From an uncultured Rickettsiales bacterium (GTDB lineage Bacteria; Pseudomonadota; Alphaproteobacteria; Rs-D84): 42,952 bases of DNA. The stretch covers positions 1-42,952 of the forward strand of contig CAMWQN010000006.1 in assembly GCA_947176385.1 (NCBI GenBank). Direction: 5' to 3'. A program made the translations under genes and the position numbers. Shown here piece after piece: positions 41,407 through 41,577 of the stretch (positions within the stretch are counted from its first letter, which is position 1; every line of letters begins with the position of its first letter). The notes under the pieces are model-generated. The model saw only the letters and a program-made list of their open reading frames with translations. It was not told where the DNA came from and did no database searches.

Positions 41407-41577
41407 TGTCAGGTGTTCTGGCGTTGAGCTTAACAACTCTTTCCGATGTGTCCATGTATATGGGCAAATTCTCCAACCATGGGTTGGGGTGCTGTGAATA
41501 TATTGAATAAACGGCGCAATTCATCGGATTGTTGTTAAACTCCAACCACTTGAAAAATTTTTTTCGGTGGTTTTTTT
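41407..41577 (+). ncRNA. candidate cis-regulatory structured leader RNA, copy B (ends in intrinsic terminator)
   Basis: Hairpin GTCAG/CTGGC; P1 GAGCTTAACAAC/GTTGTTAAACTC; TCCGATG/CATCGGA; P2 CTCCAACC-ATG-GGTTGGGG; P3 GCTGT-15nt-ACGGC; second CTCCAACC; terminator AACCACTTGAAAA/TTTTCGGTGGTT + T-run. Confidence 0.75.

Follow-up and report, generated by a model that had tools for sequence, protein, structure and literature searches.

Two unrelated genes in one stretch of bacterial DNA are each preceded by a structured intergenic element, which raises the question of what this RNA does and how widely it is used. The window, by which we mean the whole stretch of 42,952 nucleotides that was analysed, opens with a complete 16S-tRNA-Ile-23S-5S rRNA operon (364-5325) and carries two copies of the element, named A and B. 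An earlier note had read them as a structured leader RNA of unrelated genes, and this part of the reading stands; its count of two copies, its assignment of one hairpin to B alone and the role it gave to a repeated CTCCAACC do not. In the likely reading, B serves as 5' leader for the gene that starts at 41598, and it is one of many copies of a conserved transcription-attenuation RNA with two states.

Architecture of the element

Every helix that had been proposed for B is present where it was placed, as judged by a sequence check and by minimum free-energy (MFE) folding. The MFE fold of 41400-41590 consists of exactly the named helix set at -64.5 kcal/mol (z = -5.8), and none of 200 shuffles folded as well. 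The parts of B and its gene are as follows, with pairing values from the alignment of relatives (A4).

41396..41401, + strand: TATAGT, the -10 box of a sigma-70-type promoter belonging to the element, with the start of transcription expected at about 41407-41409
41405..41425 (41405-41412/41418-41425), + strand: P0, 5' hairpin GATGTCAG-gtgtt-CTGGCGTT; 7/7 pairs with double-sided changes, 94.7% paired in A4
41426..41439, + strand: P1alt, alternative hairpin GAG/CTC enclosing the P1 5' strand; 87.5% paired, 4/4 pairs with double-sided changes
41430-41437/41531-41538, + strand: P1, TTAACAAC/GTTGTTAA; 7/7 pairs with double-sided changes, 98.5% paired
41426-41428/41540-41542, + strand: outer pairs of P1, GAG/CTC, which use arm2
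41442-41448/41522-41528, + strand: P1b, TCCGATG/CATCGGA; 5/5 pairs with double-sided changes, 95% paired
41449..41466, + strand: P1c, optional small hairpin TGTCCAT/ATGGGCA of the MFE fold, with related hairpins in many relatives
41470..41478, + strand: arm1 (TCTCCAACC), 5' strand of P2 and proposed anti-antiterminator; arm1:mid 93% paired
41482..41490, + strand: mid (GGTTGGGGT), proposed switching strand, whose partner is arm1 (P2) or arm2 (antiterminator)
41471-41478/41482-41489, + strand: P2 helix (arm1:mid)
41491..41515 (41491-41495/41511-41515), + strand: P3, GCTGT/ACGGC, candidate sensor; 5/5 pairs with double-sided changes
41517..41531 (41517-41520/41528-41531), + strand: P4, CAAT/ATTG, whose loop is the P1b 3' strand
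41539..41547, + strand: arm2 (ACTCCAACC), containing the second CTCCAACC (41540-41547); mid:arm2 99.3% paired in A4
41544..41579 (hairpin 41544-41572), + strand: intrinsic terminator AACCAC..GTGGTT with T-run; 8/8 pairs with double-sided changes
41598..42779, + strand: gene for a 393-aa secreted Cys-rich protein, with a possible upstream start at 41586

P4 had been overlooked in the earlier list of helices; in the alignment its outer C-G pair forms in 84% and its four inner pairs in 79%, and all four inner pairs show double-sided changes (CUAU/AUAG, CAAU/AUUG). The hairpin CCAT/ATGG, formerly taken as specific to B, belongs to P1c, which is absent from copy A and optional but common in relatives, often as GCGTC..GACG. 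The second CTCCAACC is present as a repeat and is more than that, being the alternative partner of GGTTGGGG and a proposed switching strand: arm2 can pair with mid (antiterminator), pair with the P1 5' GAG or serve as the 5' arm of the terminator. The loop of P3 in B is a conserved AU-rich GAATA-N4-GAATA; of 96 copies parsed by pattern, 91 have GATATA-N3-RAATA or GAATA-N4-RAATA. The proposal that the leader is non-coding and structured, and that an intrinsic terminator stands directly before the start codon, is borne out as well. The ATG at 41598, after a G-rich Shine-Dalgarno sequence, is better placed than the one at 41586, and the start lies 13-25 nt past the terminator stem.

Copy A folds like B (-52.5 kcal/mol, z = -4.5) and precedes a gene of another kind, whose match to HTH_19 (E 9e-5) lies under the curated cut-off.

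14900..15053, + strand: copy A of the element
14951-14959, 14961-14969 and 14970-14994, + strand: arm1, mid and P3 of copy A
14996-15000/15005-15009, 15017-15025 and 15023-15043, + strand: P4, arm2 and terminator of copy A
15075..15359, + strand: gene for a 94-aa XRE-type helix-turn-helix protein (Pfam HTH_19)

Copy number and distribution

The assembly (of an uncultured gut bacterium; 995 kb in 42 contigs, 95.6% complete) yielded further copies with identical arms in a pattern search, and the first five copies fold identically. A covariance model built from those five (R1) produced 44 matches in the same genome at E ~1e-5 or better, with E-values down to 1e-38 and about 0.8% of the DNA covered, so that the two copies of the earlier note become about 44 strong ones in 995 kb. 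Among the species of one genus, the first search counted 0 to 46 copies per genome, and relatives within the bacterium's genus have up to 45. A second covariance model, R2, was derived from 68 copies of relatives. Within the order it matched 192 of the 208 genomes and 20 of the 24 genera; in a sample of 395 from the class, it matched 28 genomes outside the order, most of them of 1.1-2.4 Mb. The counts of both searches are lower bounds, as scoring was limited to 13 or 6 candidates in each genome. A phylum-wide sample contained no match outside Alphaproteobacteria, and the named records with the motif are assemblies of gut Alphaproteobacteria, Candidatus Enterousia scatequi among them. Neither a pattern search of viral contigs nor a blastn search of plasmid records with B gave a match. 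No Rfam 15 family matched at the gathering score, a lax E-value limit giving chance-level matches only, and no description of this leader family was found in open-licence papers. The family is thus real and conserved, and undescribed in Rfam and in the literature searched. Copies also occur in tandem, two or three in a row and about 200-240 nt apart (L052, L095, G131:C4:75814-76469, G143:C1:384377-384792 and G003:C2:180501-180886).

Two alternative folds supported by covariation

Across 66 distinct relatives, 93.5% of the cells of fold I are paired, 37 of its 44 pairs show double-sided changes and its covariation score is 0.598, numbers that lean towards fold I because the alignment was fitted to that structure and that are to be read on the scale of shuffles (0.189) and slid controls (at most 0.117). 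Homologues therefore keep the pairing while the sequence changes, in line with what had been expected of this element from the window. Fold II, a three-way junction of mid:arm2, P3 and P4 that uses AACC (or ACC) from the terminator's base, has double-sided changes in 18 of 23 pairs and a score of 0.349 vs 0.158 in shuffles; none of 500 shuffles reached the covariation measures of either fold.

The central strand of fold II is complementary to arm2 in nearly every copy. Although the model contains no mid:arm2 helix, this pairing is formed in 99.3% of A4 cells vs 93.0% for arm1:mid. With arm2 read from fixed alignment columns, a copy's own arm2 complements at least 8.5 of 9 positions in 83% of 127 copies vs 0.3% when the arm2 of another copy is swapped in; CCTCCTGACC copies account for many of the low scores: one of their bases falls outside the fitted columns, and their full pairing can be seen. 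At the ninth pair, G or T in mid tracks C or A in arm2 (47 GC, 10 UA), and arm1 pairing is absent there in 16 rows. The three strands arm1/mid/arm2 covary as a triplet, reading CTCCAACC/GGTTGGAG/CTCCAACC, CTCCTGACC/GGTCAGGAG/CTCCTGACC, CTCCTGC/GCAGGAG/CTCCTGC or CCCGAC/GTCGGG/CCCGAC (arms of the type CCCGACC occur too), and distant families follow the same rule in other letters (CTTTTTGCC/GGCAGGAAG/CTTCCTGCC and CCTCTCGC/GGCGAGAGG/CCTCTCGCC). P1alt (GGGG/CCUC, GAG/CUC), which contains the P1 5' strand, likewise has double-sided changes. Since mid:arm2, P4 and P1alt also covary, most strands have two conserved partners. Judged from aligned sequences, covariation shows both fold I and a second, mutually exclusive fold II; fold II could also form as a pseudoknot alongside P1 and P1b instead of replacing them. 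The pair of alternative folds that characterizes a riboswitch, one of them preventing the terminator, is thus found here at the level of covariation and folding.

ViennaRNA pairs mid with arm1 (fold I) in the MFE structure of 90 of 91 full-length copies, and forcing mid:arm2 costs 11.4 +/- 5.3 kcal/mol (3.6 in copy A and in L022, 19 in B without ligand), so the default state is OFF. According to these energies, a bound signal would need to make up this cost or take effect while the RNA is being transcribed.

Two variants of the element deserve description. Four loci (G000 L007, L008, L019 and L026) carry, directly after the terminator, a second domain GGTTGGG-P3'-hairpin-CCCAACC; these copies have no downstream gene, the domain was seen only in the bacterium's own genome, and it looks like the junction of fold II (the ON state) standing alone and frozen. 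A diverged subfamily with CCCGAC-type arms has a different P3 (GTCTGTTGTTATATAACAGG-like; L028:2637-2855, L059, L072:2228-2413, L079 and L080) and may be a separate sensor class.

Promoters and downstream genes

The element brings its own promoter: a -10-like hexamer stands 0-14 nt before it in 102 of 114 copies (27 in shuffles), ending 4-5 nt upstream in about 90 of the 114, and a -35-like box lies at a spacing of 16-18 nt from the TATAAT-like -10. On the other side, an ATG frame with a Shine-Dalgarno sequence begins within 60 nt of 39 of the genome's 48 own copies and in 48 of the 66 relatives, compared with 53 of 960 random anchors, and the median distance to the ATG in own copies is about 21 nt. 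The remaining 9 of 48 have no such frame behind them, four of these carrying the extra RNA domain, so action in cis alone cannot account for all copies.

The claim that copies precede unrelated genes is confirmed on this larger set, in which two classes recur. One comprises small XRE-type helix-turn-helix (HTH) proteins (Pfam HTH_3, HTH_19, HTH_31); the other has signal-peptide-like starts and is often Cys-rich. By a simple rule, such starts occur in 22 of 40 genes behind own copies vs 27 of the 116 longer ORFs that these loci contain, and in distant families the downstream genes encode predicted lipoproteins, among other membrane or secreted proteins. The protein behind B matched nothing in Pfam or NCBIfam and is a member of a secreted family in the genus; its nearest full-length homologues, from two other species (G003, G024; 29-32% identity), carry the leader immediately upstream.

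A subfamily with CTCCTG arms (G000 loci L066, L069-L075 and L078) stands throughout before secreted Cys-rich proteins, most members having a longer extra arm (GGCGC..GCGCC). CAGGAG follows 8 of 11 CTCCTG-type copies vs 3 of 68 CTCCA-type copies, a covariation with the Shine-Dalgarno sequence that is only a hint because the CTCCTG-type copies are paralogues and thus confounded; arm2 could mask the Shine-Dalgarno sequence as a second layer of control.

Proposed switch and its signal

From sequence and predicted structure, we infer that the two folds interconvert, in which direction they switch and that a signal decides between them. In the OFF state, P0, P1, P1b, P1c, P2 (arm1:mid) and P3 would form, leaving arm2 free to build the terminator, and RNA polymerase would halt at about 41575. 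In the ON state, mid would quit arm1 and pair with arm2, closing the three-way junction of mid:arm2, P3 and P4; the base of P1 would be dismantled, the terminator would lose its 5' arm and the gene would be transcribed. The choice may be set by a common trans signal, bound at the junction or at the conserved loop of P3, and one signal would then switch about 40 genes, mainly HTH regulators and secreted proteins. A shared trans signal is a reasonable proposal because leader copies with conserved pairing control unrelated genes.

Among candidate signals, a small molecule or nucleotide ranks first, at close to an even chance; a protein comes second, at roughly one chance in three, and RNA or temperature rank last. 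The GGDEF domain (PF00990) was not found in the 95.6%-complete assembly and is present in 8 of 14 control genomes, which makes c-di-GMP an unlikely ligand. A search for CsrA in the genome gave only a below-cut-off match inside a 605-aa open frame, and a search for ANTAR proteins gave no match in this genome or, likewise, in the control genomes.

Alternative explanations

A protein, possibly one of the small HTH products, might bind P3 and set the switch in an autoregulatory circuit. HTH genes are a main class behind the element and the P3 loop offers two AATA-type half-sites at fixed spacing, which would suit such a circuit; however, genes for secreted proteins carry the leader too, the HTH proteins are diverse and their binding to P3 is purely putative, and we rate this arrangement as rather unlikely.

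The main rival to a cis-acting switch takes the short terminated RNA to be the actual product, one of a family of trans-acting small RNAs, and read-through to be secondary. The element does have its own promoter and terminator, the nine own copies that lack an ATG and Shine-Dalgarno frame lie, for example, between convergent or divergent genes, the arms are identical among many copies and could pair between molecules, and Bartonella Brt1 has been proposed to act in trans (PMC5387305). Yet in 39 of 48 copies an ATG with a Shine-Dalgarno sequence follows at about 21 nt, fold I ties up both arms and mid, and every copy preserves its own mid:arm2 pairing, which action in trans would not demand. 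We therefore consider this explanation unlikely for the family, while a trans role of the terminated RNA is possible, above all in the nine copies that no gene follows. A mainly free-standing RNA, as copies C24 and C33 had first suggested, was dropped as a general rule because 39 of 48 copies stand before a gene.

A mobile promoter-leader cassette, spreading like a MITE-type repeat without sensing anything, would account for the wide variation in copy number within one genus (0 to 46). It is very improbable, however, since the copies differ strongly in sequence yet keep both folds, lie at fixed spacing just before start codons and are retained by diverged homologous genes, and since neither viral contigs nor, with B in blastn, plasmids gave a match. 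Chance inverted repeats beside an ordinary terminator, conceivable in A+T-rich intergenic DNA that often folds, are refuted by the covariation (0 of 500 shuffles), the E-values to 1e-38 and the 44 strong copies.

We thus retain the two-state attenuating leader. If it is true, a single RNA switch would coordinate, within a reduced genome, about 40 genes, most of them for secreted proteins or regulators; copy number, covariation of two folds and the regulon of a leader switch are what make it remarkable. The arms covary as a triplet, and therefore compensatory mutants can test the mechanism directly, while the conserved P3 loop is a defined target for finding the signal.

Comparison with known systems

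Riboswitches that terminate transcription, such as the purine class, consist of a three-way junction whose closing stem competes with a terminator. The present element shares their logic of anti-antiterminator, antiterminator and terminator, but has no Rfam match and possesses an extra, large 5' domain (P0, P1, P1b, P1c) that would switch as well. Riboswitches for c-di-GMP form regulons in which many copies control surface genes and regulators. Here, too, one leader class is common to many surface and regulatory genes; unlike the c-di-GMP riboswitch (GEMM), the element has no Rfam match and stands in a genome without detected GGDEF.

The closest likeness in layout is to the Brt1-9 RNAs of Bartonella, RNAs of about 200 nt before Trp helix-turn-helix genes, with 0-34 copies per genome between species, which are highly expressed, have been described as restricted to Bartonella and were suggested to be both sRNA and riboswitch, a read-through switch in cis (PMC5387305). 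Both families place a structured RNA directly before HTH genes in many copies per genome, a trait shown by copy A and others and not by B and the other copies before secreted proteins. Five plasmid Brts have the strand order of the present family: P0, P1 with a base that uses arm2, P1b, arm1:mid, P3, P4 around the P1b 3' strand, and then an arm2 complementary to mid. In their helices, which were placed by eye before counting, some pairs have compensating changes, and one of the five, that of B. kosoyi, spontaneously adopts the junction of mid:arm2, P3 and P4. The P3 loop differs, however, Brt arms read CTCCCGG, the plasmid Brts lack a T-run after the 3' hairpin and have an arm2 that can pair with the Shine-Dalgarno sequence, and the regulon of the present family also includes secreted proteins. 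R2 gave no match at the Brt site of the plasmid loci, a Brt model (R3) run on the window and 43 loci of the present family matched only its own source, and Brt DNA had no match in 395 genomes of the class in a search run without a positive control. Common descent is plausible on a likeness first noticed by eye, with profile searches failing both ways. By comparison of layouts, the present element is built like Brt and probably works like it. With a little less than even confidence, we propose a previously unrecognised, class-wide family of riboswitch-like RNAs in Alphaproteobacteria with small genomes, of which Brt would be the sole described branch and in which one signal would switch the secreted proteome together with HTH regulators, at about 45 copies per Mb here; for the Brt RNAs of Bartonella, the leader family offers a general model with a testable three-strand switch.
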